Shown here one piece after another: positions 45,636-62,665 of a stretch of DNA of 64,000 bases. Within the stretch, counting starts at the first letter, position 1. Each line of letters opens with the position of its first letter. A program made the translations under genes and the position numbers. The notes beneath the pieces were generated by a model. That model was not told the origin of the DNA. It did not search any database and was given only the letters and a program-made list of their open reading frames with translations. Origin of the DNA: Sulfuricurvum sp. (GTDB lineage Bacteria > Campylobacterota > Campylobacteria > Campylobacterales > Sulfurimonadaceae); contig NZ_JAQUHV010000003.1 of NCBI RefSeq assembly GCF_028681615.1, positions 1 through 64,000 on the forward strand. Reading direction: 5' to 3'.

Positions 45636-45724
45636 CATTTCTTACATTCTAGAATAGCGGCAATTTGAGATAAAAACCTTTGGTGTTGAAAAACAAATCA
45701 ATCTACATGATAGTAAGGAATCCT

Positions 45725-46825
45725 ATGAAACAACTGCTATGGCTACTCTTCTTCAATATTGCATTGATAGCCGATAGTGTGAGATCGTTTCACGATATTG
45801 AAAAATCAGCCCTTAGCGGGGATGGATATGCCCAATATCAACTGGCGACGATGTATGAAAACGGATCGGGTACGGATCAAAACATGACTCAGGCCTTTTA
45901 CTGGTATAAGAAAGCCGCATACAATGCACTAGCCAAGAGTGAAGATAATACTTCAATAGGTAGCGATAAACAGGTTTATCAGATCGACCCAGTGACCGAT
46001 AAAAAAATGCAGAAATTTGGGAATGAACATTTGGATATGCCAAAAAATTCTGAAGAACGTAAATCATTGGTATCTACGATGTTCAGCAATTTTGGGATAC
46101 TTCCTCATGAAAAAAATTATTTAATACCCTTTTCGTATACGACGGAAAATTACGAGAAACGTAACAGTATCGACTACCCCGGATACAATGTTTTTAATAG
46201 CAATGTCGAAACGGAATTTCAGATCAGTTTTAAAAAAACGCTTAGCTATGACTTACTGGGTTGGAATGAAACGCTTTCTTTTGGATACACGCAAGAAGTA
46301 TGGTGGCAGTTATATACCAATTCTGCTCCGTTTCGGGAAACGAATTACAAACCTGAATTTTGGATAACTATTCCCAGCACACATGAACTGGATTCTCTAA
46401 GTGGTTTAAAAGACATTAGTATCGGGTTTCTGCATAAATCTAATGGACTTGGGAAACCGTTGTCTCGTGATATGAACCAAGTTTATTCAGATTTGGATTT
46501 TCAGTATAACGATTTACTGATTCAATTAAGAGGATGTTATACTCACGCTAGCAGTGATAATAAAGACATTACTTCTTATCTCGGATACGGTCATTTGAAA
46601 TTCAAATATCTTTATGGGCAGCATCAATTTGAACTGACGTTGCGGGATAACCTTTATTTTAATAGCAACAACCGTGGTTCAATCGAAGGTGAATACTCAT
46701 ACCCAATCAACAACTCTAAAAATAATTTTTTGTTCATCAAGGGGTTTAGCGGCTATGGTGAGAGTTTGATGGATTACAATCACCCGCAGAATCGTTTAGG
46801 AATCGGATTGCTAATTTCTAGATAA
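45725..46825 (+). CDS. Outer-membrane phospholipase A with N-terminal Sel1 repeat
   Basis: 366 residues from ATG 45725 (AAGGA upstream; an earlier in-frame start at 45680 is weaker). Signal peptide, then one Sel1-like repeat (SGDGYAQYQLATMYENGSGTDQNMTQAFYWYKKAA), then an OMPLA barrel. The active site His237-Lys-Ser239 in FLHKSNGLGKPLSRDMNQVY matches the HxSNG...SR.WN motif of PldA, and YTQEVWWQLY...PFRETNYKPEFW is the family hallmark. It should hydrolyse phospholipids that reach the outer leaflet. The Sel1 addition is unusual. Confidence 0.87.
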   Translation: MKQLLWLLFFNIALIADSVRSFHDIEKSALSGDGYAQYQLATMYENGSGTDQNMTQAFYWYKKAAYNALAKSEDNTSIGSDKQVYQIDPVTDKKMQKFGNEHLDMPKNSEERKSLVSTMFSNFGILPHEKNYLIPFSYTTENYEKRNSIDYPGYNVFNSNVETEFQISFKKTLSYDLLGWNETLSFGYTQEVWWQLYTNSAPFRETNYKPEFWITIPSTHELDSLSGLKDISIGFLHKSNGLGKPLSRDMNQVYSDLDFQYNDLLIQLRGCYTHASSDNKDITSYLGYGHLKFKYLYGQHQFELTLRDNLYFNSNNRGSIEGEYSYPINNSKNNFLFIKGFSGYGESLMDYNHPQNRLGIGLLISR

Positions 46826-47448: not shown

Positions 47449-48624
47449 ATGAGTAAACGAGCTTCGTCTTCGTCATTATTGCGCCTTACATTCATTAGTA
47501 TGGCTCTTTCAGCCGCACTAATGGCAGCTTTTTTTGAAGATGGAGTCAAAGCTTTTGATACCAAAAATTATTCTACAGCTGTAAAAATTTGGCAGCCACT
47601 TGCAGAGCAAGGAAATATTGCAGCGCAATACAATCTTGGAATCATGTATGAAAATGGGTATGGGGTGGAACACAACGATGCTAATGCCTTCAAATGGTAT
47701 CTCAAAGCTGCAGAACAAGGACATGTGGATGCGGAGTATAATGTTGGCGTGATGTATGGAGCCGGTCTTGGTACTCAGAAAAATGATCAACTTGCTGAAA
47801 AATGGCTCTCTTTGGCTGCTGCACAGGGAGATAAAGAAGCACAGAACATTCTCTCGTCACGTTACAATCATTTGGAAAATAAAACTGTTGATGCACAGCA
47901 AACTGTTGCTGTAACAAAAGAAAAGTTAAGCAATGATTCCAAATCGAATACTATCCCTTTAAAAGTTAAAAGTGACAAGAGAGTAGGAGCAGCTCCAATG
48001 GCTGTATCGGCAGGAAATACCAATCCGTTATCATCTACGGTTGTCGACATAAATCAAGACGGAATTGCGCCTATAACAAGTGTGCAAGATATATCACAAA
48101 TGTCAGAAGCAGCCAAATGGTTGATGAAGTCGGCCAAGCAGGGTGACCCTCGAGCTCAATATAATCTTGCTTTATTATATGCGGAAGGAAATGGAGTTCC
48201 AAGAAATGATGTGAGAGCGGCAGCATGGTATGCGGCTGCAGCAGCGCAAGGGTATTCTGAAGCGCAGTATAACCTTGCATTGTATTACCTTGCTGGCCGT
48301 GGTGTAGCAAATAACGATACACAGGCGATATCATTGTTTACGAAAGCTGCACTACAAGGAAATCCGAATGCACAATACAATTTGGGGGTTCTCCTTGCTG
48401 AAGGGCGTAGGGTAGCGAAAAATGAATCGGAAGCGGTTAAATGGTTTACTCTCGCAGCCAAACAAGGCCATGCTGATGCACAGTATGAGCTTGGATTGGC
48501 ATACTCTGAAGGAATTGGTGTTGGAAAAGACCTACAAGAGGCTCTTAAATGGTACCGTAAAGCAGCCGAGCAAGGACATAGCCGCGCGCAATATAACCTT
48601 GCTATCCTACTTTCAAATTCATAA
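47449..48624 (+). CDS. Exported Sel1-repeat protein
   Basis: 391 residues with a signal peptide (about 1-27). About eight Sel1-like repeats form two blocks (about 40-145 and 215-391), separated by a Ser/Lys/Thr linker. Each repeat has the AQYNLGxMYxxGxGVxxNDxxAxxWYxKAAxQGH pattern, for example NLGIMYENGYGVEHNDANAF. Such proteins scaffold protein complexes in the periplasm. It precedes the exopolysaccharide cluster in the same direction with a gap of about 100 bases. It is similar in style to the repeat in the phospholipase protein upstream. Confidence 0.85.
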   Translation: MSKRASSSSLLRLTFISMALSAALMAAFFEDGVKAFDTKNYSTAVKIWQPLAEQGNIAAQYNLGIMYENGYGVEHNDANAFKWYLKAAEQGHVDAEYNVGVMYGAGLGTQKNDQLAEKWLSLAAAQGDKEAQNILSSRYNHLENKTVDAQQTVAVTKEKLSNDSKSNTIPLKVKSDKRVGAAPMAVSAGNTNPLSSTVVDINQDGIAPITSVQDISQMSEAAKWLMKSAKQGDPRAQYNLALLYAEGNGVPRNDVRAAAWYAAAAAQGYSEAQYNLALYYLAGRGVANNDTQAISLFTKAALQGNPNAQYNLGVLLAEGRRVAKNESEAVKWFTLAAKQGHADAQYELGLAYSEGIGVGKDLQEALKWYRKAAEQGHSRAQYNLAILLSNS

Positions 48625-48726: not shown

Positions 48727-50169
48727 ATGATTCTTGATAAAACCATTGCAAGTGCTGAAGTTATTCTAATCGAAGGGGAAAGAGGTGTAGGAAAAAATAT
48801 GCTTGCTACCTTCATTGCTGCTGCTTCTGGTTTAAAAAATCCTACCCAGATCGTAACGATTCCCGAAGAAACATTTTATAAAAAAAATGAGATCACCAAA
48901 AAAATGATGGGTGACAATGCTTTTGTTTTTGAGCACGCTGTCATTCTCAATAACGATTGGAAGAATTCCAAGCGTCATATGGGGATGAATTTTTTATTCA
49001 ACGACATTGAGAAACTACTCCGTGAGAGCGAGACAGAACTACTCTACATTCAACGGATCGATTTATTTTTTGATATGATGGACCAAATTGGCAGTTTTGA
49101 GATTCTTTCGGATATTGTCCGATTGGTTCTAAGTAAAAAGATCAAAACAGTCATTACGTTGCTCAAAGGGAGTGAAAATTATTCATCCATTCATGATGCC
49201 CTGCTCAATTATGCTGACTTGACTCTTTCGATTGCGTTTGATAATACTCAAAAAGGGCGGGAGGTTCAAGTTCTTTCTTCTTTCTATCCACTCGAGAATA
49301 CTCTGCATAGTTTTGTGTATACAGATCAGTCGTTTACATTGCTGCAGCAAACAAAAACAGAGCCGGTAGCAGTGGGTGCTGTTACGAATATTTTGCCTGT
49401 GGAAGTAGAACGTCCTTTAAGTAGGAATCACGCAAACATCAATATTGCAATTATTGCGCACAGCTCTTATCTGTCAGGATGGAATGAATATTTGTTTGGC
49501 AATCTGGTCCGTATTGCCGTACGTCGATTCAGACAGTTGTCAGAATTATCTGACGAGATGTGGTCTCAAAGTTCTTTGATTGTTTATGAAACTGAAACGG
49601 TTATGTCGGCAATGATGTTTTTGGAGAAGGCCAATACCAATTATCCTCAGCTTAAAACGATGATTGTTTTGGAGAAAGATTTTGTTCGGGCTGAAGACAA
49701 GATCCGTGCGCATCAGTTTGGTGCAACTGGAATTTACGATAATAAAATCAGAATCATAGATTACGTTCTCACTATTGAAAAAACGCTTGGAAATACCTTT
49801 TACTCTGACAGTGTTCGAGATCATATGCAGACCAGTACGGTAGAATCAGAAAGTAATTTTATTGAATTGATAGAACTCTCTCTTCGTGCAAGACGTATTT
49901 TTACCGTTTTCGTTTTTACCTATACTGTTCCTTTCCAAAATGAACGGTTTGATACGATTTTCAGAGAAGATGATGTCGCCTTTTTAGATAATGAGCATCA
50001 TAAATTTTATTTGATGCTCAGCAATACCCAGAAAACAGATTATGAAGTGGTATTGAAGAAGTTTTTATTGTTGAAAGAAGATGTGATATTTGACGCTGCT
50101 TATGAAGCACCTACTCTATTTAGCGGTGAAGTACGCCTGTTTGAACACACATTCGGAAGTACTGTATGA
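48727..50169 (+). CDS. BcsE-like protein: P-loop, receiver-like and degenerate GGDEF domains
   Basis: 480 residues, cytoplasmic. The N-terminal part (about 1-215) is RecA/KaiC-like with a near-canonical Walker A, GERGVGKN (17-24, Asn in place of Ser/Thr), and a Walker-B-like ELLYIQRIDLFF. The middle (about 240-365) looks like a receiver fold (INIAIIAHSSYLSGW...TMIVLEKDFVRAEDKIRAHQFGATGIYD) without the phosphoacceptor. The C-terminal part (about 375-460) resembles a GGDEF fold whose active loop is lost, but an RxxD site (Arg413-Asp416) sits five residues before it. That order matches BcsE, a c-di-GMP sensor of cellulose synthases. It overlaps the TPR/barrel gene by 4 bases, so it likely regulates this cluster. 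Confidence 0.6.
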   Translation: MILDKTIASAEVILIEGERGVGKNMLATFIAAASGLKNPTQIVTIPEETFYKKNEITKKMMGDNAFVFEHAVILNNDWKNSKRHMGMNFLFNDIEKLLRESETELLYIQRIDLFFDMMDQIGSFEILSDIVRLVLSKKIKTVITLLKGSENYSSIHDALLNYADLTLSIAFDNTQKGREVQVLSSFYPLENTLHSFVYTDQSFTLLQQTKTEPVAVGAVTNILPVEVERPLSRNHANINIAIIAHSSYLSGWNEYLFGNLVRIAVRRFRQLSELSDEMWSQSSLIVYETETVMSAMMFLEKANTNYPQLKTMIVLEKDFVRAEDKIRAHQFGATGIYDNKIRIIDYVLTIEKTLGNTFYSDSVRDHMQTSTVESESNFIELIELSLRARRIFTVFVFTYTVPFQNERFDTIFREDDVAFLDNEHHKFYLMLSNTQKTDYEVVLKKFLLLKEDVIFDAAYEAPTLFSGEVRLFEHTFGSTV

Positions 50170-52868
50170 ATAATGTTGTAGGCAAAATTGCTTGGATTGG
50201 ATTGACGAGTATCGCATTACATGCAAGTTTGGGGATTGACGAATCATCGTTTCAGAAAATGATTCGCGAACATCCAAACGATTTTCAGTATCGTGTGATT
50301 TATGCTCGTTTTTTGCTCGAGAATAATCGTATTGCACAAGCGTACGATGTGTTGAAGGGGTTGGATCCCAAGAAAAATTATTCTGTCAAAAAGATATTAA
50401 ATGATTTACACCAGCAAGAAGCAGACCAGTCTTTTTTGAAAAAAAAAGCGATTGATCTAAATAGCCAGGAGTATGTTACCAGTATTACTTCATTTTCCCC
50501 AGAGGAGGCAGAAAAATTATATGCCATTTTGTCTCGTCATCATATTGATATAAGTAATACTGTAAAAAAAGCGCTTGCACGTAAAATTGCTGAAGGATCA
50601 AACAAGTTCCTCGCCGGAAGTATTCTTGCATCAATGCCTAAAGAGTTCTCCGAAACGAGTGTAAAAAAGATAAAAGCTACATCTCCTGATTCGGACAGGA
50701 ACGAAATGCGTCGCTCGATTGTTGCTGTCACAAAAGAAGTTTCTATTCCAGTCATAACACATTTAAAGACAGATCGTGAATTGCTTGAAGAGAGTTTGGA
50801 GGAATATGCTCAATCTCCGAGTACACAGAATGTTCAGAAAGTTGCCTATCTGTATTCTAAATTAGGCCGCACAGAAGATCAAATTGCTTTATTTAAAGAG
50901 TATTTGAAAACTTATCCGTTTGACTCTGAGATTCGTTTGACATTAGGACAGAATCTTGCGTGGAACCGCCAATATGATGAAGCATTGATTTACCTTCAGG
51001 GCGTCGAAGGAAAACAGCGTTATTTGGCCAAATTAACAAGTGGTCAGATATACAGTTGGAAAGGGGACTATGAAGATGCAAAACAGCTGCTTGAAGAGGT
51101 AAAGCATCATGGAAACCCTTCGGAACGATTTGAAGCACGAAAAAGTTTGGCCTATATTGCACGCTGGGAAGGTGATAATGCCACGGCGGCACAGTTGTTT
51201 GCACAGTTGAATCAAGAGCAACCCTCTGATGAAGAAGTTCAAGAAGAGGTTTGGTTTGACCAAAAACAATTTACTCGTCTGATAGCTAAATATGAAGCAA
51301 ATTTAAAGAAAAATCCTGAAAATAAACAGTTGCTTCAGCGACTTTCTAATGTTCTTGTTTTGGATGGGCAATTCGAAAAAGCACTCTATTATCTGGATCG
51401 GGAGTATCGTAAAAATAATGATCCAGCTTTGCTTAAAGAGATGGGGAATATATCACTGCGGATGAAACAGACTGAAGAGGGATTATTGTATTGGAAAAAA
51501 TATGCCGAGAGTCTCAATACTCCAAAATCGTGGTTTGAATATGCCCAAAATCTTTTTTGGGTTGGAAAGAATAGCGAAGCGCTCGATACCTTGCTTTTGA
51601 TACGTCATAACGGAGAGAATGATGGCGATGTTGAAAAGCTGATACAACAAATTTCTAAAATAACTGAATCCTCCGGCGTGCAACTTCATACAGAAGCTTT
51701 ACCACAGCCGTCATTGCAGAAAGAAGAGCAGCCGGATTTGGGTAATGAAATGCAGGAAGAAGAAAAATTTGCCGATTTTCTTCGACAAAAAGGGAAGTTT
51801 TCGGAAGCATCGCGTCTTTACCGTCGCTTGTATTTGAAAAGTGGCGATATTAAATACGGCCGGGCTTACATGGAAATGCTTCAGTTTCAAGGAAAAGATG
51901 GTGAAGCATCGGCTATAGCAGAAATGTTGAATATTGATGAAATACCGTTTCCACGATTAGACAACAAAGTGGAAGAAAGTCAAAAAAAAGATATCCCTCT
52001 TACCCGCAATGAGCCTGTCCGAGTCAATCTAAAAACCGGAGTAGCAGTCGATCGGCTGAAAGATAGCAATGGATTGGAAATTCTCCAAGGGAAAATTATC
52101 GGTGAATATGTGACCGATTCAGACTACATTCTTAGAAGTGAGATTGGACGTTATCAATATAAATCAACAAAAAAAAGAATTGAGGGAACGAGTGCATTCG
52201 TATCTCTTGGTAAGGAAAATTGGGAAGGAGGGGTGTTTTTTGATACTGTGGGTTCCAAGGGTGAATTTAATCCTTACTTGCGTGCCTCTTTTCCATTAGC
52301 ACCGCATACCCTTAGTCTGAGTGCGCAAAGAAGAAATATAGGATTTTCTAAATACGCAATTACACCGTTTGAAGAACATAATTCTTTTACTTCTTTAACT
52401 ATTAGTGATTACGCATTGTTTGAAAACGGTCGTGAATTTTGGGGGGCAGCGGAATTTGGCCGGGATGAGAACGGTAATATGATTTTTACCCCGCAATTTC
52501 AGTATCGTTTCTATCAATTTGAATTACCAATTGCTGTTTGGTCCCTCTCTACGAGCGGTTGGTATACGTTCAATTCTCAGCCTACAGATGCCTATTATTC
52601 TCCCAGTTTTGCAGATGCGACTTATGTGTCAAATGGTTTGAATTTTCCGATGGCAGAACGTTTCAATCTTGAACTAAATGGTGCACTTGGGTACTCATTT
52701 AATAGTGAAACATCTCTTTATAAAATTGGTGCATGGATTGATCGTAAGATTGATGAAGGATGGAATCTGAAGCTTGGATGTTCAGATAATAGCTCATTCA
52801 GCGGTAGTAGTACATCGGTACCGTATTCGTACAGTCTGTGTAATGCACTTATCTATTATCGATGGTGA
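50166..52868 (+). CDS. TPR/outer-membrane barrel exporter of an exopolysaccharide (PgaA/YaiO-like)
   Basis: 900 residues. Signal peptide, a long TPR superhelix (about 30-600, including YPFDSEIRLTLGQNLAWNRQYDEALIYL and REYRKNNDPALLKEMGNI), then a C-terminal barrel (about 640-900) ending YSLCNALIYYRW. Barrel strands such as TLSLSAQRRNIGFSKYAITPFEEH resemble the barrels of BcsC/PgaA/YaiO proteins. It would carry polymer across the periplasm and outer membrane. ATGA overlap with the BcsE-like gene; 10 bases before the synthase gene. Confidence 0.8.
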   Translation: MNNVVGKIAWIGLTSIALHASLGIDESSFQKMIREHPNDFQYRVIYARFLLENNRIAQAYDVLKGLDPKKNYSVKKILNDLHQQEADQSFLKKKAIDLNSQEYVTSITSFSPEEAEKLYAILSRHHIDISNTVKKALARKIAEGSNKFLAGSILASMPKEFSETSVKKIKATSPDSDRNEMRRSIVAVTKEVSIPVITHLKTDRELLEESLEEYAQSPSTQNVQKVAYLYSKLGRTEDQIALFKEYLKTYPFDSEIRLTLGQNLAWNRQYDEALIYLQGVEGKQRYLAKLTSGQIYSWKGDYEDAKQLLEEVKHHGNPSERFEARKSLAYIARWEGDNATAAQLFAQLNQEQPSDEEVQEEVWFDQKQFTRLIAKYEANLKKNPENKQLLQRLSNVLVLDGQFEKALYYLDREYRKNNDPALLKEMGNISLRMKQTEEGLLYWKKYAESLNTPKSWFEYAQNLFWVGKNSEALDTLLLIRHNGENDGDVEKLIQQISKITESSGVQLHTEALPQPSLQKEEQPDLGNEMQEEEKFADFLRQKGKFSEASRLYRRLYLKSGDIKYGRAYMEMLQFQGKDGEASAIAEMLNIDEIPFPRLDNKVEESQKKDIPLTRNEPVRVNLKTGVAVDRLKDSNGLEILQGKIIGEYVTDSDYILRSEIGRYQYKSTKKRIEGTSAFVSLGKENWEGGVFFDTVGSKGEFNPYLRASFPLAPHTLSLSAQRRNIGFSKYAITPFEEHNSFTSLTISDYALFENGREFWGAAEFGRDENGNMIFTPQFQYRFYQFELPIAVWSLSTSGWYTFNSQPTDAYYSPSFADATYVSNGLNFPMAERFNLELNGALGYSFNSETSLYKIGAWIDRKIDEGWNLKLGCSDNSSFSGSSTSVPYSYSLCNALIYYRW

Positions 52869-52878
52869 TAATTTCTAA

Positions 52879-54174
52879 ATGCCTTTAATTATCATACTTT
52901 TATTTTTGTCTCTGACCTATCTGGCATTTTTGAATGTCGGTGAAATGTATACATTTTATCAAACTATCGACAATATTTTCATAATGTTCGCTATCGTTAT
53001 CATATCGGTATTTACCGGTCTGGTTATTCTCAGATACCTTACACTTATGTTTTTCTCTATTTTTAAAGTTGGATTAAAAACTGAACGAGAAAATGTTCAA
53101 AAAAACTTCCATACCCATCTTAGGGTTTCTATCATCGTTCCTGGCTACAACGAAGAGGTTGTTATAGGTAGATCGATTGTTTCTCTATTGCAACAGACCT
53201 ATCCGAATATGGAAGTCATTGTGGTAGATGACGGTTCTAAAGATCAGACGTACCGTGTTGCTAAACGGTATGAAAGCGAACGGGTCAAGGTTGTTACAAA
53301 ACCAAACGGAGGGAAATCAAGAGCGATAAATACAGGGATAGAATATGCAACCGGGGATATGGTGATGGTTGTGGATGCCGATTCGAGGCTAAATGATGAT
53401 GCGGTAGCCTTGATGGTACAATATTTCGATAATCCAGAGATTGCCGCCGTGGCCGGGTCGGTTTATGTTGTCAATCAAGTTAATGCAGTGACCCGTTTAC
53501 AAGCGCTCGAATACATTGAAGGGCTGAACATGGTTCGCAACGGGCAGGCTTTTTTAAAACTTGTTAACATCATACCCGGTCCGATTGGAATGTTTCGTAC
53601 GGAAGCACTGAAAAAAGTGGGTTTGTACGATCATGATACATTTGCCGAGGATTGCGATGTTACGTTGAAATTGCTTGCAGAAGGTTACAAAATTGATTTC
53701 GAATCAGATGCTGTAGCCTATACTGAAGCACCCGAACACTTGCTTGACCTTATCAAACAGCGTTACCGTTGGACAAGAGGGATCTTACAAGCGATCCGAA
53801 AACATAAATCCTACCTTTTTCATACACAAGGGCGTCCTTCGATGACGGTCGTTCTTTGGTATATGCTCTTTGAATCGATTTTTTGGCCTTTTATGGATGT
53901 TTGGGCAACGATATTTTTGCTGTATTTGACATTGATAACGGGGGTCAATTCACTTATCTTTTTCTGGTGGTCTCTGTTTACAATTCTTGACCTCGCTGGT
54001 GCGTTGTATTGTGTGTTGATAACGAAGGAAAAATTATCACTGGTTTTTTACGCTATACTTTACAGGCTCTATTTTATCGGTATCATTAATCTGACCAAAA
54101 TCTTTGCAACGATTGAAGAATGGCTTGGATTGGGGATGTCGTGGGGAAAACTTGATCGAAAAGGAAGAATATAA
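52879..54174 (+). CDS. Processive GT2 polysaccharide synthase (PgaC-like)
   Basis: 431 residues, two N-terminal and about three C-terminal membrane helices round a GT-A domain. Motifs: VPGYNEE, VVDDGSKD (Asp117 region), DADS (166-169), the AEDCDVTLKL catalytic base region (Asp258) and QRYRWTRG (Q294...R297-W298). This DD-DxD-D-QxxRW set marks processive synthases such as PgaC (poly-N-acetylglucosamine), hyaluronan synthase and BcsA. The PgaC assignment relies on the deacetylase in the same operon. No PilZ domain is present. Confidence 0.85.
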   Translation: MPLIIILLFLSLTYLAFLNVGEMYTFYQTIDNIFIMFAIVIISVFTGLVILRYLTLMFFSIFKVGLKTERENVQKNFHTHLRVSIIVPGYNEEVVIGRSIVSLLQQTYPNMEVIVVDDGSKDQTYRVAKRYESERVKVVTKPNGGKSRAINTGIEYATGDMVMVVDADSRLNDDAVALMVQYFDNPEIAAVAGSVYVVNQVNAVTRLQALEYIEGLNMVRNGQAFLKLVNIIPGPIGMFRTEALKKVGLYDHDTFAEDCDVTLKLLAEGYKIDFESDAVAYTEAPEHLLDLIKQRYRWTRGILQAIRKHKSYLFHTQGRPSMTVVLWYMLFESIFWPFMDVWATIFLLYLTLITGVNSLIFFWWSLFTILDLAGALYCVLITKEKLSLVFYAILYRLYFIGIINLTKIFATIEEWLGLGMSWGKLDRKGRI

Positions 54175-54176
54175 TT

Positions 54177-54392
54177 GTGAACATTATTACGTTTATGACA
54201 TTTGCAATTTTGGTAATTACTATATTGACACTGGTATTTGGCGTTTTGGCCTATTTTCTTTATAAAATACGTGAATCGAAGAAGAAAGTTCATATTCTTG
54301 AAGAGGGATATGAGGAGATGCTCACTAAACAAGATACTGATTATATTTTTTTCAAAAAGGTAAATCTTTATGAACGTCCTGAGACTAATTAA
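54177..54392 (+). CDS. Small single-pass membrane protein (possible PgaD analogue)
   Basis: 71 residues from GTG 54177. One strong membrane helix (FMTFAILVITILTLVFGVLAYFLY) is followed by a charged cytoplasmic tail (KIRESKKKVHILEEGYEEML...). It starts 2 bases after the synthase stop and overlaps the deacetylase gene by 23 bases. The position equals that of PgaD, which helps PgaC, but it is about half that length and shows no obvious sequence similarity. The role is inferred from context. Confidence 0.6.
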   Translation: MNIITFMTFAILVITILTLVFGVLAYFLYKIRESKKKVHILEEGYEEMLTKQDTDYIFFKKVNLYERPETN

Positions 54393-56208
54393 ACCAGGTT
54401 CTTTCGACTATGGTTTAAAAGTTTTCGGCTTTACTATTCTTATCGCGGTGCTGATGTCACCAGTATTTTATTTTCTTTTCAATAATTATGCTCCCGCGAA
54501 TTTTGCTATCAGTATTGGTGAAGCGAGAGAAGTATATCTCTTGCGATCTTCAACGACAATAGAACAGCTCAAAAGTTTTGGTAATGACGGAACAGGTTAC
54601 GAGAATCAGCTTAATCAGATATCGGGATATCTTTCCGAAATCGGAATCAGCTGCGAAATTATCGACGAGAAACGACTTCTGACGTTGAAGCCGGGAGACA
54701 CCCTATACGTAATCGATGCTATTGCTTTGGACGAGTCGTCGGTTGAAGCGATTGAGCACTTCGTAGAAAGTGGAGGAGGGTTGATCTTCAATTATTATAG
54801 CGGATTTAATGGATCGCAGGGAAAATGGCGTGGAGAGAGTTTTGTCAAAAATCTTACTGGATTAGAAAGAGATCCTTTTATCAATACGCTCAAAAAACAG
54901 GGCAATATGTTTTGTACTCCAAAAGTATTTTCACCATTGAGTACGAATGTGCCAAATGGACCTTTGATGACGTTTGTCTATTACGACGATATTCCTCTGT
55001 TCAAAGCACCAGAAGGGGTAAAACCAGACATGATGCTGACGAATTGGGCTCAATTTGATACACCGCTGATTGGAGATGCTAGGCTACCGAAACAATATGC
55101 GGGAGTACTCTGGCACGGTTTTAAAGGAAAAGGAAGTTGGATTTATTTTAATTTTCCTTCCTATGTTTTTGGTTCATCGCAAGCCGATTCAGGTAAATAC
55201 GTCTCATTATTTCAGGGAATGACACGGTATATGGTAGATGGTTCCGCAGTACGGGTTCATCCTTATATGTACGGAAAAAATCCGGTTTTTGTATCGGAAG
55301 ATACAGAATTTCATTTTGAAAATGCACGTAATTTTTCTGAGCTCGTTGGAGAGCTTCAAATTCCAGCAACAGCATTTTGTGTTGCCAAATTGGCCGATGA
55401 GAATGTTGAAGTTACCAAAGAGCTGGGTAAAAATCCATATATTGAAGTGGCATCCCACAGCTACACTCACGGTCCGTTGATCGGCATAGATGATGAGACG
55501 CTTGATCGGGAAGTCCTTGGATCAAAAATGGCTATTGAAAAGATTTCGGGTACACCCATCACCGGGTTTCGTCCTCCAAGAGAAGAGGTGGATGATCATG
55601 TGGCTCAAAAACTTGTTGAATCCGGCTATACCTATACAATGGAAAAGAATAAAAATCATCTGTACCCTTCCATCATTCGAAAAGACCTTGTAGTTATCTC
55701 CAGGATTGGGACAGATGATTATGCATTTTTAAGTAATCAAACATTTGATGAACAGGCATTACTGCAGGCGATGAGGGATGAAGCCTACTTTGTTGATGCC
55801 CTTGATGGTATCTATACTCTGAGTGTTCATACTCATCTTTTTTCAGATCCTCAAAATATTTCGCTTCTAAGATCAGTACTGACTCTACTTAAAAAAGAAG
55901 ATAAAGTAAATTTTTTGCAGGGACGTGAAATCGCAGATCGGATCAAATCAGTAAGTCTTATTGATGTTGGAGTGACACGTAGCAGTGAAAATTACATTGT
56001 ATCATTTCTTAACAACAATCCAAAAACTGTCTCAAAAGTCACCATACGCCTTTATTGGCCAAGATGGGGTGCGGCAAAAACATTTAAATCTGATACGACC
56101 GGCGTTAAATTTAGCGTTCTCTCGAATGAAAACGAGCGATATAGTGATATTACTTTTTATGATGTAACGCCACGAAAACAATTTTCACTTTTTGCACGTT
56201 ACCAATAA
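54370..56208 (+). CDS. Membrane-anchored polysaccharide deacetylase (NodB fold)
   Basis: 612 residues. One N-terminal membrane helix (VFGFTILIAVLMSPVFYFLF), then a segment (about 55-290) like a glutamine-amidotransferase/DUF4350-type module (EAIEHFVESGGGLIFNYYSG). A NodB deacetylase domain follows (about 300-490): VSEDTE (Asp311), ASHSYTHG (His363 and His367, metal ligands) and TGFRPPREE. A C-terminal beta domain closes it. It likely removes N-acetyl groups from the nascent polymer in the periplasm, the job of the first half of PgaB. Confidence 0.82.
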   Translation: MNVLRLIKPGSFDYGLKVFGFTILIAVLMSPVFYFLFNNYAPANFAISIGEAREVYLLRSSTTIEQLKSFGNDGTGYENQLNQISGYLSEIGISCEIIDEKRLLTLKPGDTLYVIDAIALDESSVEAIEHFVESGGGLIFNYYSGFNGSQGKWRGESFVKNLTGLERDPFINTLKKQGNMFCTPKVFSPLSTNVPNGPLMTFVYYDDIPLFKAPEGVKPDMMLTNWAQFDTPLIGDARLPKQYAGVLWHGFKGKGSWIYFNFPSYVFGSSQADSGKYVSLFQGMTRYMVDGSAVRVHPYMYGKNPVFVSEDTEFHFENARNFSELVGELQIPATAFCVAKLADENVEVTKELGKNPYIEVASHSYTHGPLIGIDDETLDREVLGSKMAIEKISGTPITGFRPPREEVDDHVAQKLVESGYTYTMEKNKNHLYPSIIRKDLVVISRIGTDDYAFLSNQTFDEQALLQAMRDEAYFVDALDGIYTLSVHTHLFSDPQNISLLRSVLTLLKKEDKVNFLQGREIADRIKSVSLIDVGVTRSSENYIVSFLNNNPKTVSKVTIRLYWPRWGAAKTFKSDTTGVKFSVLSNENERYSDITFYDVTPRKQFSLFARYQ

Positions 56209-56210
56209 TC

Positions 56211-57170
56211 ATGTTGTATTTGGCTGCTATTGTATTGTTATTCTATTCAATGGCGGCGTATGGATTTGATCTGATTGGAGTGGGAGGATATGAATACAAC
56301 TCATCAGACGGCGTTCATTCTATTACAGAACTTATCTATAATGAACATCTGAATAACGTCAATGCTATCTCCATGTGGATTACTAGAGACTGGGACGAAG
56401 GATGGTACCCTTCAGAGGAAGTTAACGAGCGGATTATTCAGAAGGGGTTTACTCCCATATTTATTTTGTATTGGTTTGAAGATTCAATTTCTAAATCGTA
56501 CATCCAGAAAAACAAAAATGCTTATTATGACTATTTGCACCGTATTAGGAGATATTTGGACCGGGTAGAAGGGAAAAAAATTGTTGTTTTGAATCCCGAG
56601 TTCAATGAGAATAGAGTTGAGGGGTGGGAAGGATTCAATGATATTTTGCTTGAAAGTAAAAAAATTCTTGACCACGGTGACATTGCAATAGGACCATGTG
56701 TTGGAGATTTTGGCAATTATGGAAATACAGAGGATTTGAACAACTGGCAGACTTTTGATCCTTCAATTGTCTCTTCTATCTCGCATTTTGATTTTATCGC
56801 ATTTCAAGAAATGCGTGCATTGACGCGAAACAAACGCAGCGAGATTGAAAAACTTCCTGAGCGGATCGAGTCATTCGGCGGGTATCTCCATTCGAAATAC
56901 AAAAAACCGGTGTTTTTAGCATATTTGGCATTATCGTCATGGGGGGAAGAAGGGGAAAAGCTTCAAGAAGAGGTGATAAGCAGACTTAATGAGCGTCAAG
57001 AAATCTTTACTCAGAAAGGGATTTTCGGTATCAATCTTTTTAATTTGATAGATGTCCCTTTTCATCGAGGATATTTTAATGAAGGAGAGCGCTTTTTCGG
57101 TATATACTATCATAATCTGATGCCAAAGCCATCGGTCTCATTTTTTAGGGAATTGAGGGTGAATAAATAA
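56211..57170 (+). CDS. Glycosidase-like (TIM-barrel) protein of the exopolysaccharide cluster
   Basis: 319 residues with a signal peptide (about 1-18). The sequence runs like a (beta/alpha)8 barrel: FTPIFILYWFED, KIVVLNPEFNENRVEGWEGF (Glu at a beta-4 end), FDFIAFQEMRA, PVFLAYLALSSWGEEGE, GIFGINLFNLID. No family is certain. It starts 2 bases after the deacetylase, so it could replace the C-terminal glycosidase half of PgaB as a separate protein. That equivalence is inference. Confidence 0.6.
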   Translation: MLYLAAIVLLFYSMAAYGFDLIGVGGYEYNSSDGVHSITELIYNEHLNNVNAISMWITRDWDEGWYPSEEVNERIIQKGFTPIFILYWFEDSISKSYIQKNKNAYYDYLHRIRRYLDRVEGKKIVVLNPEFNENRVEGWEGFNDILLESKKILDHGDIAIGPCVGDFGNYGNTEDLNNWQTFDPSIVSSISHFDFIAFQEMRALTRNKRSEIEKLPERIESFGGYLHSKYKKPVFLAYLALSSWGEEGEKLQEEVISRLNERQEIFTQKGIFGINLFNLIDVPFHRGYFNEGERFFGIYYHNLMPKPSVSFFRELRVNK

Positions 57171-57269: not shown

Positions 57270-57896
57270 TTGATGAAACTGTTTAAACGGGAAAAAGAAA
57301 ATACGGCATTTCAGTCGGAAATAAAAGGGGCAGGTATGGCAATGAACAATCCCTTTCAATCAAAAGTATCTCAGACATTTCCTCCACCCTTTCAAGCAGC
57401 GAAAACTACTGCAGTACATGCCGTGTTTCCAAAATCAATCGAAAAAAGTCGAGAGACATCCCTTTGGAATGAAAATAATGCCTATTTACTGATGACTTTG
57501 TTAAAAGAACTAGCAAAAGTGGGAGATAAAAACAATTTTACTACCATTTTAAATCTGTGGAGTATAACATTGGTCCAGGATGTACTGGATGAGTGTTACA
57601 CGATAGAAGAAGAGGAACATTTCGAATTGTTAGTTCAATTGCTCAACCAATTGATGATGCTTCGCCATCTTGGATGTTTTCAGTGTATGGTAGATGAGGC
57701 AGCGCGGATCATTCGTATCGATTATTTCAGCACGCGGATTGATCAGGCATGTTTAGATCAGTTTGGTGAAATTTATACAACGGCATTTATCGGAAACTTT
57801 TTTGAACGGTTGATGAGTGCGATAGTGGAAGTCGATTGTAAACTCCATTCGATCGAAGGGTCTACGGAAACGTGGACATATATTTACAAAGCTTGA
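57270..57896 (+). CDS. Uncharacterised protein at the junction of the two exopolysaccharide clusters
   Basis: 208 residues, not recognised. About 60 N-terminal residues are disordered (Ser, Pro, Lys rich, with PPPFQAAKTTAVH), then a helical domain (LLMTLLKELAKVGDKNNFTTILNLWSIT ... LLVQLLNQLMMLRHLGCFQCMV). No signal peptide; RBS AAAGGA. It lies 99 bases after the glycosidase-like gene and overlaps the end of bcsQ on the other strand by 13 bases. It could be an accessory factor of either cluster. Confidence 0.6.
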   Translation: MMKLFKREKENTAFQSEIKGAGMAMNNPFQSKVSQTFPPPFQAAKTTAVHAVFPKSIEKSRETSLWNENNAYLLMTLLKELAKVGDKNNFTTILNLWSITLVQDVLDECYTIEEEEHFELLVQLLNQLMMLRHLGCFQCMVDEAARIIRIDYFSTRIDQACLDQFGEIYTTAFIGNFFERLMSAIVEVDCKLHSIEGSTETWTYIYKA

Positions 57897-58630
57897 GCGG
57901 TTTCCGGAAGTAATTTTTTAAGCATTTGGATCAGGCTTTGAGTGAGAGGGGAAAGGGGATTGATCTGATCCAGAGACTGCATCTGAGCAGATGATTCTTT
58001 TACGTTAGAATCGAACGGAAGCGCAAAAAGATACATAGAGTCAAATAAATAGCGGTATACCGTTTCAAAATTGACGCTAATTTCATCTGCCCAAACTTTG
58101 TTTGTGATAAAACGTATGGCTTTTTCTGGGTGTTTATGTATGAGTTTGGCAAGGACTTTTTGCATAAGTTCTAGTGTTGCATATGAAGTTGCATCTGCTT
58201 CCAGAACTGCAAGAATCACATTGGAAAACTGCATAGCAAGATCGGCCATCGGGCTAAAGCCAGGGGGTGTGTCGAAAATGATGTAGTCAAAATACTCTTT
58301 AAGCAACTCTAAGTATTCAAGAATCTCTTGTTCATGATTGAACATCCAGAGAAGATAATCGTTGGTTTCCTCCATTGCGGCATTACCGCTGGGCATGACA
58401 TAAATTCCAAGTGAGGTGGAATGAACCAGTTCCTCAATTGGCATCGTAAAGATTTCGGATAGCCCGTTAAAGTTTCCGTTTCCGGTCATGCCAGAGATGC
58501 TGTTTTGCGGATCGGTATCGATCAATAAAACTTTATTACCTGCTTTGTGTAACAGTGAGGCAATATTGATGGCTAATGTGGTTTTCCCTACCCCTCCCTT
58601 TGAAGAATAAATCGTAAGACTTTGTTTCAT
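57884..58630 (-). CDS. bcsQ: BcsQ-like ParA/MinD ATPase of the cellulose operon
   Basis: 248 residues. Deviant Walker A SSKGGVGKTT (8-17), VLLIDTDPQNSISG with the DxDPQ of ParA ATPases, and YIIFDTPPGFSP (Walker B region). The ATGA overlap with bcsC and the location in the cellulose cluster make BcsQ the best name; BcsQ places cellulose synthesis at the cell pole in E. coli. It is last in the operon. Confidence 0.82.
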   Translation of the reverse strand: MKQSLTIYSSKGGVGKTTLAINIASLLHKAGNKVLLIDTDPQNSISGMTGNGNFNGLSEIFTMPIEELVHSTSLGIYVMPSGNAAMEETNDYLLWMFNHEQEILEYLELLKEYFDYIIFDTPPGFSPMADLAMQFSNVILAVLEADATSYATLELMQKVLAKLIHKHPEKAIRFITNKVWADEISVNFETVYRYLFDSMYLFALPFDSNVKESSAQMQSLDQINPLSPLTQSLIQMLKKLLPETAQAL

Positions 58631-61600
58631 AAAAAATTATCCCATGCGTAAGTATTCCGTATCAATTCATTCGGATGTAGTGGCGCTAAATCGTCAAAAT
58701 AGTAAATTAATGTAGCTCCTGTAGAGAAGAAACGGTACTGTGGGGCATCAGACCAACCTAAAAAGCCAAGCAAATGGAGATGCGAATCTATTTTGTATCC
58801 AAGATAGCCTTTGAAATTGGCTGAAAATCCGCTGGTAGAAGAGCTGCTATACTGTGCAGAAGAGTTTGCGAGGGGAAAGATGGGTTCAGAAGATTCTTGA
58901 AAGGATGAGAATCCAATATTCCCTTTGAGTCTCAGATAGGTTTGAGTATCGAGATTGCCAGTGTAATCGCCATAAAGGGAAAGAAGTTGATAGGAAGTAG
59001 GACTGAAATAGCCGCCGTGACCGAATGTGAAGTGATTGGTAGAATGGCGATAACGGTCATATACGAATAAAGGTCCTGTCAACAATTCATGTGAAGGAGT
59101 ATCGATGAGTTTTGTACCGGTAAATAAGACCATCTTGGATTCAGAATTTTCGATCGTATTGATTCCACTAATATGTGGGTAGTAACCGATGCTTAGCGAT
59201 TTAATCCAGTCGTCCGATGAAGAGATAGAAGCCTCTATACCTGACCGTGTAATCCTTCCCCATGCCTGACCGCTATTGGGATCTTTTTGTCCGGTGTATG
59301 AGAGGAGTGTTTCGGTCACCGGTTGGCGGAGAAATTGTATAGAATAATGCCATGAATTCCGATCGATCAAGCTTCTAAGATATCCAGTTGGTGTACTGGC
59401 AATTGATGAGTTAATCGGTGTTGTAGCAATTTTCCCTTCCCATAAAGAGGTATCGACGCGCTTGGTATATTTGATGAAAGGTTCAAATCCGTTCAAGGCC
59501 TCGATGTTGTGATTTCCAGTATTTGTTCCGTATCCAAGGAAGGAACGGTCTGAATCAGATAGCTTTCCAGTTTGAAGATGAATTATGTTGATGCCTGTAT
59601 GTAAGGTATCATCAAAAGAGGGAGTCAGGGTCGCTTCCAGTGGTATAACTGTTTTAGTTAGACGGTCTATCCCTCGTTTTCCAGATCGGTTTTCAAAAAA
59701 AAAACCACCACTTGCAGAGGATTGCTTTTTGGACAGGATTTGCTGTTTCAGATCGTTGATTGTATCACTTTGTTTCTGCTGATTTGAAACTGACGGGGAA
59801 TTTCTCAATAAAAATGACTTTTCTTGTTCATTTGATCGATCTTTCTCAGAATATATCGGAAGATTTTCGGGTTGCTGCAGCGAGGTTGGTAAAAATGGGT
59901 TATAGATACCGTTTAGATCATTCGTTTCGGAAGGTTTGGAAGTCTCTTCGGGTAAGCTCTTCTCTTGGTGTGGCATAAGGTCAGGTCTGTTATTGCGGTA
60001 GTCTTCAACTAGTTTGATTGTATCAAGTGCTTCTTGGGAGTATCCCATATTTTTGTATAACTCGGCAATTTTTTTTAAAAGCTCAACGTCGGTTGTTTTG
60101 GAAGCCTTAAAAAGATAGCCGTAGCTTTTTTTGGTATTTTTAGCATTATAGGCACTTACTGCTGACGCATAATAGAGTCGATTTGAAGGGTTAGAAGCGA
60201 GCAACTGTTCGAATATCAACAATGCATCGGCAGGACGCTTTTGATTCAGTAGGCTCCATGCAAGATTTTCTTTAAGAGTAGGATCGTTAGGGGCGAGCAA
60301 TAAACCACTTCGTGCAGTGCGCTCGGCTGCATCAAAATGTTTTAAACTGAGTTGTTGAGACGAAAGTTTGTGATAATAAACAAGATATAGATTTTTGAGT
60401 TCACTGAGCTCTTCAGAAGAAAAAGTTTTGTCTTTTAACGTATTGAAGTAGGTTTCAGTTTGTGTAAAACGTTCCAAATTTAAAAGAGCATACAGTAAAG
60501 CGATCAAATCATCTGTTCGTCCGCTTTTCTGATAAACGACAGTCCGATAGCGGATTGCATTGCTGCTTTTGAGATGTTCTGATATAAGGGCCAACTCACG
60601 CAGCACTTCGAGATTCTCTGGATCTTTTTTAAACAAATCTTCTGTCAATTGCTGGGCTTTTGTATAATTATTTGTTTGAATTAGAGAACCGATTTGGGCC
60701 ATTTTATAGTTGTACGTAAGTGCAGCATCCCATTTTTTTCTATCGATTTGTTCATAAGTTGTAAGAGCAGACTGATAGTTGCAAAGAGCATAGTATGTTT
60801 GTGCAAGGCCGTAGAGGGCATAAAAATTGTCGGGTGCAAATGTCAAAACTGACTCATAATACTCTTTTGCTTTTGAAAATTCTCCTTGGCGGCTATAGAC
60901 TTCGCCAAGACGAAGTAGAATGTCAATGTTTGAAGGAGTTTGCAGGTAAAGTTCTTGAAGAGCGTTTTCTGCTTCTGTGAGTGAATTTTGTGTAATGAGC
61001 TGTTTGATCGTGGTCATTTTTACTATAAAGGTGTTTTCGTTGTTGTTTTGGGCCTTTGTCGATCCGAGGTGTTCGAGTGCTTGAGTATAGAGTGCATATA
61101 TTTTAGGATCGTTATGAATTGCGGCTGCTCGAGCTAAGGTTTTGCGAACTTTGTCCCATTGCTGCTGATGTGCATACACAAGGGCATTTCCGTAGAGTGC
61201 AAGGGTATTTTTCGGTTGACGTTTCAAAATGGTATTGAACTGTGCAAATGCGTCATTCCACCGGTCTTCATCGATGGCTTTGTAACCTTCTGCAATGATT
61301 TGACTATCGTTTTGCTTTTTAGATATCACAGAGCGTTTTTTGATTTTTTTTCTCATTCCTGTGTTTTTTTTGACCTCTTTCTCTGATACGTTTGAATAGG
61401 GTGCAAAAGTTGAAATAGCAGACTTTGTAGGGGAAAGAGAAACCGAAGGGGTCTGATTTTTATCCATAGGCTCAGAAAATTTTTGTGTATGAGAAACACT
61501 ATTTGTTATAGTACGAATTCGACTTAATGCGGTTTCATTTTTTGGGGAAAGGATCAATATATGACGGTATATTTGAATTGCTTCGTCGTATTTTTGGAGA

Positions 61601-61722
61601 GATTCATATCGTTTCGCCAATCCAACAAGCTCCTCCACGTCGGGATTACTCGCATTCAGCATCACTGCCGAGGAGAGCAAACATAGCCATACTGTCGCCA
61701 AAATAGGTGCTGTTTTTTTCAT
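58627..61722 (-). CDS. bcsC: Cellulose exporter BcsC (TPR plus outer-membrane barrel)
   Basis: 1031 residues. Signal peptide ending near MLNASNP. About 20 TPR helix pairs fill residues 30-600 (for example EFSKAKEYYESVLTFAPDNFYALYGLAQTYY). A Gln/Ser linker and a BCSC_C-type domain from about residue 675 follow, with GGFFFENRSGKRGIDRLTKTVIPLEA matching the family opening FxxRSGExGLxRLxxxxxPLE. A C-terminal barrel ends TLIYYFDD... It carries cellulose through the periplasm and outer membrane. It overlaps bcsZ by 77 bases and bcsQ by 4. Confidence 0.87.
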   Translation of the reverse strand: MKKTAPILATVWLCLLSSAVMLNASNPDVEELVGLAKRYESLQKYDEAIQIYRHILILSPKNETALSRIRTITNSVSHTQKFSEPMDKNQTPSVSLSPTKSAISTFAPYSNVSEKEVKKNTGMRKKIKKRSVISKKQNDSQIIAEGYKAIDEDRWNDAFAQFNTILKRQPKNTLALYGNALVYAHQQQWDKVRKTLARAAAIHNDPKIYALYTQALEHLGSTKAQNNNENTFIVKMTTIKQLITQNSLTEAENALQELYLQTPSNIDILLRLGEVYSRQGEFSKAKEYYESVLTFAPDNFYALYGLAQTYYALCNYQSALTTYEQIDRKKWDAALTYNYKMAQIGSLIQTNNYTKAQQLTEDLFKKDPENLEVLRELALISEHLKSSNAIRYRTVVYQKSGRTDDLIALLYALLNLERFTQTETYFNTLKDKTFSSEELSELKNLYLVYYHKLSSQQLSLKHFDAAERTARSGLLLAPNDPTLKENLAWSLLNQKRPADALLIFEQLLASNPSNRLYYASAVSAYNAKNTKKSYGYLFKASKTTDVELLKKIAELYKNMGYSQEALDTIKLVEDYRNNRPDLMPHQEKSLPEETSKPSETNDLNGIYNPFLPTSLQQPENLPIYSEKDRSNEQEKSFLLRNSPSVSNQQKQSDTINDLKQQILSKKQSSASGGFFFENRSGKRGIDRLTKTVIPLEATLTPSFDDTLHTGINIIHLQTGKLSDSDRSFLGYGTNTGNHNIEALNGFEPFIKYTKRVDTSLWEGKIATTPINSSIASTPTGYLRSLIDRNSWHYSIQFLRQPVTETLLSYTGQKDPNSGQAWGRITRSGIEASISSSDDWIKSLSIGYYPHISGINTIENSESKMVLFTGTKLIDTPSHELLTGPLFVYDRYRHSTNHFTFGHGGYFSPTSYQLLSLYGDYTGNLDTQTYLRLKGNIGFSSFQESSEPIFPLANSSAQYSSSSTSGFSANFKGYLGYKIDSHLHLLGFLGWSDAPQYRFFSTGATLIYYFDDLAPLHPNELIRNTYAWDNFL

Positions 61723-62665
61723 CCATCCCTTTCTTTTCTGTGATACATGATACTTTATAAATTATACCGAAAAATTTCAATGAATTTTCCATGGCTCCAG
61801 AAGTATCAGATTGAAGAGACATAGAATTGTGTTCAAGATCGATCCAAACAGGTGCAAACGGGAATGATGCTAGGGTTTTGTAGCCATTGAGTTGTTGCTG
61901 TATCGTTGCATTGGGATGGAGCCTGTCCCACAATGACCAAAAAAGAGGGATGCGTAGAGCATCATAGCTAAAATAGGGTTTTTTGGTATCAAGAAAAAAT
62001 TTGTTATCCTTGAAAGCTATCCAGTCGGGATGAAGTTGTAGTTGTCCGAATCGTTGAGCGAGTATGAGTTTAGACTCGGTGATCATCCGTTTCCATAAGA
62101 TTGCATCGTCTACCCGTGCGAAAGTATCGAAAATAAAAGGAATATAGTAGGAAGGGTTGAGTAGAAAAGTGTTGTCATGGACAAAACCATATTTGCCCGG
62201 TAGCAACAAAAGCCGATCACCTGAAGAGAGGATGAGATGGCGTTTGATGGCCTCAAGATGCGTGATGGCTTTCTCCAATTGATCGGGATGTTTGAACACT
62301 TTTGACGCTTTGATACGTGCATAAGCTATCCATAAGTCACCATCGGTCGCATTGTTTGAGTCAAGAATTTTCCATTCATGCGTGTTTGATTTACCCCATT
62401 TCCATGGGTACAGCCCTTCGGAATTGCGCGGAAGGTTATTTTCAAGCCAGTGTTCAACACTCAGGTAGGTTGTTTCATCATTCATAGCTACGGCAAAAAA
62501 TAGGGTATAGCCAATTGCTTCTGAATGGGTGATAGCTTCATTTTCACGATCGATGACCCGACCATCTTTTTGGAGATAGCGTTCTTTAAAGAGTTCCCAT
62601 GTGATCGCGTTGAGTGAAGGTGAAAGTATCAATATCGCGATCAGGAGAAAAAAAACTTTAGACAT
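61646..62665 (-). CDS. bcsZ: Endo-1,4-beta-glucanase BcsZ (GH8)
   Basis: 339 residues with a signal peptide (MSKVFFLLIAILILSPSLNA). GH8 hallmarks: WELFKERYLQKDGRVID, THSEAIGYTLFFA with the general acid Glu49, YPWKWGK, and NNATDGDLWIAYAR with the substrate Asp108. BcsZ trims cellulose chains in the periplasm and is needed for normal export. The C-terminal 25 codons overlap the bcsC start, and the first 8 bases overlap the bcsB end. Confidence 0.87.
   Translation of the reverse strand: MSKVFFLLIAILILSPSLNAITWELFKERYLQKDGRVIDRENEAITHSEAIGYTLFFAVAMNDETTYLSVEHWLENNLPRNSEGLYPWKWGKSNTHEWKILDSNNATDGDLWIAYARIKASKVFKHPDQLEKAITHLEAIKRHLILSSGDRLLLLPGKYGFVHDNTFLLNPSYYIPFIFDTFARVDDAILWKRMITESKLILAQRFGQLQLHPDWIAFKDNKFFLDTKKPYFSYDALRIPLFWSLWDRLHPNATIQQQLNGYKTLASFPFAPVWIDLEHNSMSLQSDTSGAMENSLKFFGIIYKVSCITEKKGMDEKNSTYFGDSMAMFALLGSDAECE

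Follow-up and report, generated by a model that had tools for sequence, protein, structure and literature searches.

The six open reading frames at positions 48727-57170 of the analysed window (bases 1-64000 of contig C3, from a genome of 2.66 Mb) raise the question of whether a c-di-GMP receptor resembling BcsE, a protein of cellulose systems, can belong to another kind of exopolysaccharide operon. The original prediction had described these genes as a PNAG-type operon led by a BcsE-like sensor. Our analysis suggests, with a probability of about 0.8, that the first product, here named P1, acts in the cytosol as a BcsE-type receptor for c-di-GMP and specifically serves an exopolysaccharide operon that is neither a cellulose operon nor a canonical pga operon. 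The computed support consists of the gene set, the order of the three predicted folds in P1, two conserved RxxD motifs, homology to BcsE, the conservation of the operon and the co-occurrence of its genes.

Gene content of the operon

The six genes are present as originally predicted; all of them lie on the forward strand.

48727-50169, + strand: P1, predicted BcsE-like protein with RecA-like, receiver-like and degenerate GGDEF domains (ORF of 480 aa; AlphaFold2, Foldseek, hhalign)
50166-52868, + strand: P2, TPR-repeat protein, probable periplasmic scaffold and outer-membrane exporter (900 aa; TPR matches in Pfam)
52879-54174, + strand: P3, predicted processive GT2 synthase without a PilZ domain (431 aa; Pfam GT2, 3.4e-39)
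54177-54392, + strand: P4, predicted single-span membrane protein whose cytosolic tail carries a C-terminal strand-like YIFFE (71 aa; conserved family)
54370-56208, + strand: P5, predicted membrane-anchored NodB polysaccharide deacetylase (612 aa; Pfam PF01522, 3.7e-15)
56211-57170, + strand: P6, predicted secreted glycosidase-like protein (319 aa; conservation)

The start of P2 overlaps the end of P1 by ATGA, also as predicted. TPRs are present in P2, which scores only 18 bits against the PgaA model, and its C-terminal barrel and exporter role are considered probable from the sequence. P4 has one hydrophobic segment (residues 1-32) and belongs to a family of 60-72 aa proteins. The motifs SEDTE and SHSxxH of P5, which correspond to the metal-site motifs, are invariant or nearly so among 11 relatives, and its N-terminal domain resembles a beta-galactosidase-trimerisation domain. 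P6 gave no family match in Pfam or NCBIfam and has invariant Glu residues in NPE130xN and FQE200MR. Scans for promoters and terminators found nothing beyond chance level. A Sel1-repeat protein (47449-48624) is encoded directly upstream of P1 and is itself preceded by a gene (45680-46825) whose product has a repeat-like stretch at its N-terminus and possibly an outer-membrane domain.

Domain organization and predicted fold of P1

P1 had been read as a P-loop domain followed by a receiver-like domain lacking a phosphoacceptor and a GGDEF-like domain lacking its loop, and comparison of a predicted structure with BcsE had been proposed. An AlphaFold2 model of P1 was built on an alignment of ten relatives (mean pLDDT 77.8); residues 234-480 modelled alone reached a pLDDT of 86.3 and a pTM of 0.83. 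Together, the models of the whole protein and of its C-terminal half, searched with Foldseek, gave a degenerate NTPase, a receiver and a GGDEF fold in that order, and the column check agreed with the described losses.

48727-49347, + strand: P1 residues 1-207, degenerate RecA/KaiC-like NTPase-type domain (KaiC match; Walker residues)
49432-49815, + strand: P1 residues 236-363, receiver-like domain without a conserved phosphoacceptor (structure and HMM matches; column check)
49687-49698, + strand: first RxxD, R321-A-E-D324, at the start of receiver helix alpha4 (invariant; aligned to BcsE R306ATD)
49849-50124, + strand: P1 residues 375-466, GGDEF-like domain without the GGDEF loop and most of the beta1-beta2 helical segment (AlphaFold2; Foldseek)
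49963-49974, + strand: second RxxD, R413-E-D-D416, canonical I-site (invariant; aligned to BcsE R415TGD)

In VIA-align, the N-terminal domain was matched to KaiC over 192 residues (Z 19.3, rmsd 2.7 A) and the middle domain to receivers over 117 residues (Z 15.7, rmsd 2.4 A); receiver chains were also matched by the middle domain in an HMM search (E 1.5e-5). ATP hydrolysis by P1 appears unlikely, because its Walker A sequence lacks the Ser/Thr after GK and position 109, at the end of the expected Walker B strand, is occupied by His or Gln rather than Asp. The receiver phosphoacceptor column, which holds E288 in P1, contains Asp in a single relative (L016), and a GG[DE]EF motif is absent from every aligned relative. 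In active cyclases, helices lie between the first and second strands of the GGDEF domain. In the model of P1, these strands (E392-399 and E417-421) are separated by a short stretch only, which agrees with the description of the GGDEF-like domain of BcsE as missing the P-loop and alpha1 (PMC7439463).

Relationship of P1 to BcsE

In order to place P1 among proteins of known structure, its models were compared with 350,542 PDB chains using Foldseek. Five BcsE chains were the top five matches of whole P1, with full-length alignments and a best E of 4.5e-15, followed by KaiC at about 1e-10. For the C-terminal half, BcsE accounted for eight of the top nine matches; the ninth was the REC-GGDEF cyclase DgcR, and PleD and WspR came after it. 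E. coli BcsE ranked first in both searches, with low TM-scores that reflect domain orientations not reproduced in the model. The VIA-align match lists did not contain BcsE, being taken up by KaiC for whole P1 and by receiver domains for the half. PleD, WspR and DgcR share the REC-GGDEF tandem and the I-site with P1; unlike P1, they are active cyclases that have a phosphoacceptor and a GGDEF motif.

At the sequence level, P1 is only about 12% identical to BcsE and lies below Pfam detection. No Pfam family exceeded its cut-off for P1 or for P6, the Pfam BcsE family (PF10995) matched neither P1 nor anything else in the genome, and BLASTP of P1 against E. coli BcsE gave no match, a single-sequence comparison being too weak at such a distance. 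Profiles of 18 P1 sequences and six BcsE sequences were also compared. Here hhalign returned an E of 9.8e-6 (probability 82.5) over 333 collinear columns, which extend into the NTPase-type domain and include the additional RxxD of the receiver domain. R321-D324 was placed on R306-D309 of BcsE and R413-D416 on R415-D418. The controls, a reversed profile and 15 shuffles, all gave E values of 0.27 or worse; with only 13 P1 sequences the match was weaker (E 0.0066).

The RxxD at Arg413-Asp416 had been noted in the original prediction, which overlooked that at R321-D324. All four residues are invariant in both alignments of P1 relatives (13/13 and 18/18). They are among the few invariant residues, which include E351 and Y359, of a family about 20% identical to the P1 of the window. 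In BcsE, R306ATD and R415TGD together bind a c-di-GMP dimer in a single composite site, with affinity going from ~2.5 uM to ~140 nM (PMC11470070).

Fold, profile-profile homology and the dual RxxD thus support the BcsE-like nature of P1 that had been proposed, and none of the computational outcomes named in the original prediction as refuting it was seen. P1 and BcsE (PF10995, GIL domain; E. coli; PDB 6TJ0, 6YBB and 9FO7) share the order NTPase*-REC*-GGDEF*, the loss of the phosphoacceptor and of the GGDEF loop, and an RxxD in both REC* and GGDEF*; both are also encoded by the leader gene of an operon that contains a short single-span membrane protein. P1 differs from BcsE in belonging to a non-cellulose operon without BcsR or BcsQ and in lacking the BcsQ-binding tail. 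BcsE holds BcsQ by a long C-terminal tail, and P1 ends about 14 residues past its last modelled helix.

Stand-alone relatives of P1 (266-269 aa) that consist of the receiver-like and GGDEF-like domains only and retain both RxxD motifs were found at L026:5726-6535, where the gene adjoins glyS, ctpA and purC, and at L027:9603-10403; they are possibly free-standing c-di-GMP receptors. The existence of such proteins, the match of the P1 receiver domain to generic receiver profiles and the free KaiC-like ATPases of the Firestonebacteria operons described below would also be expected if the RecA/REC/GGDEF order had arisen by an independent fusion, P1 and BcsE being convergent rather than homologous. 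We consider this unlikely, as the hhalign match is collinear through part of the NTPase-type domain and the additional receiver RxxD.

Relationship of the operon to pga

Of the claim of a BcsE-like sensor in a PNAG-type operon, the likeness of P1 to BcsE was thus supported, whereas the assignment of the operon to the pga type is weak at best. The best NCBIfam model for P3 was PgaC/IcaA (TIGR03937), with a score of 192.7 bits where the cut-off is 422.3, and neither PgaD nor a PgaB with a GHL13 domain is encoded within the operon. A canonical pgaB-pgaC-pgaD locus, missed in the original prediction, was found elsewhere in the genome on contig C6 (positions 5838-9658 of L092, C6:38000-54000); its PgaB has the GHL13 domain, and no pgaA was found beside it. 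Moreover, two other P1-bearing genomes (G028 and G258) have a complete pgaABCD besides the P1 operon.

P3 is about 31-32% identical both to E. coli PgaC and to the PgaC of its own genome, which are 50% identical to each other, and 57% identical to the P3 of Pontibacterium. A first GT2 tree contained rows for NodC, Lactococcus and Deinococcus; its branches were very long, and it grouped PgaC with Firestonebacteria/Delta rows. For a second tree, the NodC, Lactococcus and Deinococcus sequences were dropped and three native PgaC proteins were added. In this tree, the five PgaC proteins grouped together (100/100), and the eleven P3 proteins formed a separate clade (99/100). Judged by sequence, the nearest characterised relative of P3 is PgaC/IcaA, yet P3 belongs to a separate clade. 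A Deinococcus plasmid (L088:5826-9275) encodes a protein of ~1150 aa whose C-terminal GT2 domain is 35.5% identical to P3, and this gene is followed by one for a diguanylate cyclase.

The resemblance to the E. coli PNAG system PgaABCD includes a GT2 from the PgaC/IcaA neighbourhood, a probable TPR exporter, a NodB deacetylase and a small membrane protein. The operon could accordingly be a divergent pga that makes ordinary PNAG with a sensor in place of PgaD, a reading favoured by the best NCBIfam match of P3 and by the deacetylase and glycosidase-like protein. It is improbable in view of the separate pga loci in this and two other P1 genomes, the own clade of P3 and its far closer likeness to a gammaproteobacterial P3 than to PgaC; PgaD and the PgaB-GHL13 fusion are also lacking. 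Since the genome has a pga locus of its own and P3 stands apart from the PgaC clade, we did not file the operon as pga. From the enzymes of the operon, a deacetylated aminosugar polymer is a plausible product, and PNAG itself is a possible one. In E. coli, c-di-GMP acts directly on PgaC/PgaD, without a BcsE-like sensor (PMC8461298).

Distribution and gene order

The presence of the same gene order in other Campylobacterota had been suggested as a check. Of 397 Campylobacterota genomes, 11 were found to have full-length P1, and these are precisely the 11 with P5; in them the order is always P1-P2-P3-P4-P5, usually with P6. Additionally, 84,980 genomes were scanned with P6 as bait, and the same order was found in further Campylobacterota and in three Gammaproteobacteria: Pontibacterium sinense, Marinobacterium jannaschii and a Methylococcales MAG. 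P1 always lies within the P2-P6 operon, the start of P2 overlapping it or being close. This recurrence indicates that the operon is not an oddity of one strain. The operon is absent from all nine sampled congeners, which suggests acquisition by horizontal transfer; P1 was not found in the plasmid and phage collections.

Just upstream of P1, other genomes encode an unusual histidine kinase-FecR-TPR fusion, often together with an OmpR-type regulator. The fusion was recognised by Pfam at L017:10717-12612 and L019:7516-9387, and ORFs of the same size lie upstream of P1 in L020, L021, L024, L025, L029 and L038.

Related operons of Firestonebacteria have P4, P5, P6 and a GT2 but no REC-GGDEF protein, which implies that a core system lacking P1 is possible and that P4 has some use beyond anchoring P1. 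In one of them (L042:7655-17162), which encodes P4, P5, P6, a GT2 and a TPR exporter, the place of P1 is taken by three ATPases, two of them free KaiC-like proteins with an intact Walker A and one of the XrtA type. Such free KaiC-like ATPases are a possible source of the N-terminal domain of P1.

Proposed mode of action

The host genome has 63 GGDEF matches, and c-di-GMP is therefore probably abundant in it. We propose that c-di-GMP, probably as an intercalated dimer, would be clamped between R321/D324 of the receiver-like domain and R413/D416 of the GGDEF-like domain, as in closed BcsE. Closure would alter the seating of P1 on the membrane synthase via the degenerate NTPase-type domain, with P1 docked either on the GT2 P3 directly or through the short tail of P4. 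We infer that this closure would activate P3, which has no PilZ domain; the polymer would then leave through the TPR/exporter protein P2, be deacetylated by P5 and be trimmed by P6.

The short membrane peptide BcsF extends the NTPase* sheet of BcsE by a strand and thereby recruits the protein. The strand-like YIFFE of the P4 tail may add a strand to the N-terminal domain of P1 in a similar fashion. P4 may, on the other hand, mainly serve the synthase, because it occurs without P1 in Firestonebacteria. We also considered P4 as a homologue of BcsF and rejected it, as only the architecture agrees, a sequence alignment is not meaningful, and P4 is present without P1 in Firestonebacteria.

Alternatively, P1 might be a scaffold that assembles the P3/P4 complex and has lost c-di-GMP sensing. 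Every catalytic function of P1 has been lost, and the assembly role of BcsE is separable from its c-di-GMP binding (PMC7439463). We nevertheless regard this as quite improbable, since nothing in this family, with its identity of only about 20%, is better conserved than the two RxxD motifs, a pattern that is difficult to account for unless a ligand is bound.

The adjacent cellulose operon

A cellulose operon, not mentioned in the original prediction, converges on the P1 operon.

57884-64000, continuing to about C3:67440, - strand: bcsQ, bcsC, bcsZ and bcsB, with bcsA beyond the window (convergent with the P1 operon)

Its products matched BcsQ, BCSC_C (1.9e-46), GH8 (1.9e-51) and BcsB (6.1e-107), and BcsA reached 803 bits against a cut-off of 699. 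An ORF of 94 aa upstream of bcsA (L015:7156-7440) may encode a BcsR/BcsP-type peptide. Between both operons lies P7 (57270-57896, + strand, 208 aa), conserved only in the close relative L028 and without a family in Pfam, NCBIfam or PDB.

P1 might instead be the BcsE that this operon lacks, with BcsA/BcsQ and not P3 as its target. In favour of this, the operon encodes no Pfam BcsE, and in L028 a BcsQ fragment likewise adjoins the P1 operon. This reading is very improbable, because a cellulose BcsB was found in only 2 of the 15 P1-bearing genomes, bcs genes adjoin the P1 operon in the window and L028 only, P1 always accompanies P2-P6, and the P1 model stops shortly past the GGDEF domain and has no long tail of the kind that holds BcsQ.

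Implications

The best reading of the P1-P6 operon is that it encodes a separate kind of exopolysaccharide system, synthase-dependent and under c-di-GMP control, which has its own BcsE-like sensor and lacks BcsR and BcsQ. Such a system has apparently not been described so far; a search of the literature, mostly of openly readable papers, turned up no protein resembling BcsE in any system other than cellulose. In the Pel system, PelD is, by description, a comparable c-di-GMP receptor of a synthase-dependent exopolysaccharide, with a degenerate GGDEF domain and an I-site RxxD (PMC7439463), but the genes of the Pel operon are unrelated to those of the P1 operon. The fuller proposal is that of a c-di-GMP-activated system, common to Campylobacterota and Gammaproteobacteria, whose sole receptor is a BcsE-family protein with two I-sites that works without BcsR/BcsQ and perhaps with P4 as a BcsF-like tether; to this we give an even chance.

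In cellulose systems, the role of BcsE is entangled with those of BcsR, BcsQ, BcsF and a PilZ-bearing synthase. In a simpler operon with a PilZ-less synthase, the role of a BcsE-like protein could be tested in isolation. The operon would also add a polymer system to Pel, alginate, PNAG and cellulose, with a c-di-GMP input predictable from sequence. The results suggest a wider use of BcsE-type sensors in turning on the production of biofilm polymers and, if the proposal is true, such sensors would be modules that serve polymer synthases in general and not just accessories of cellulose production.
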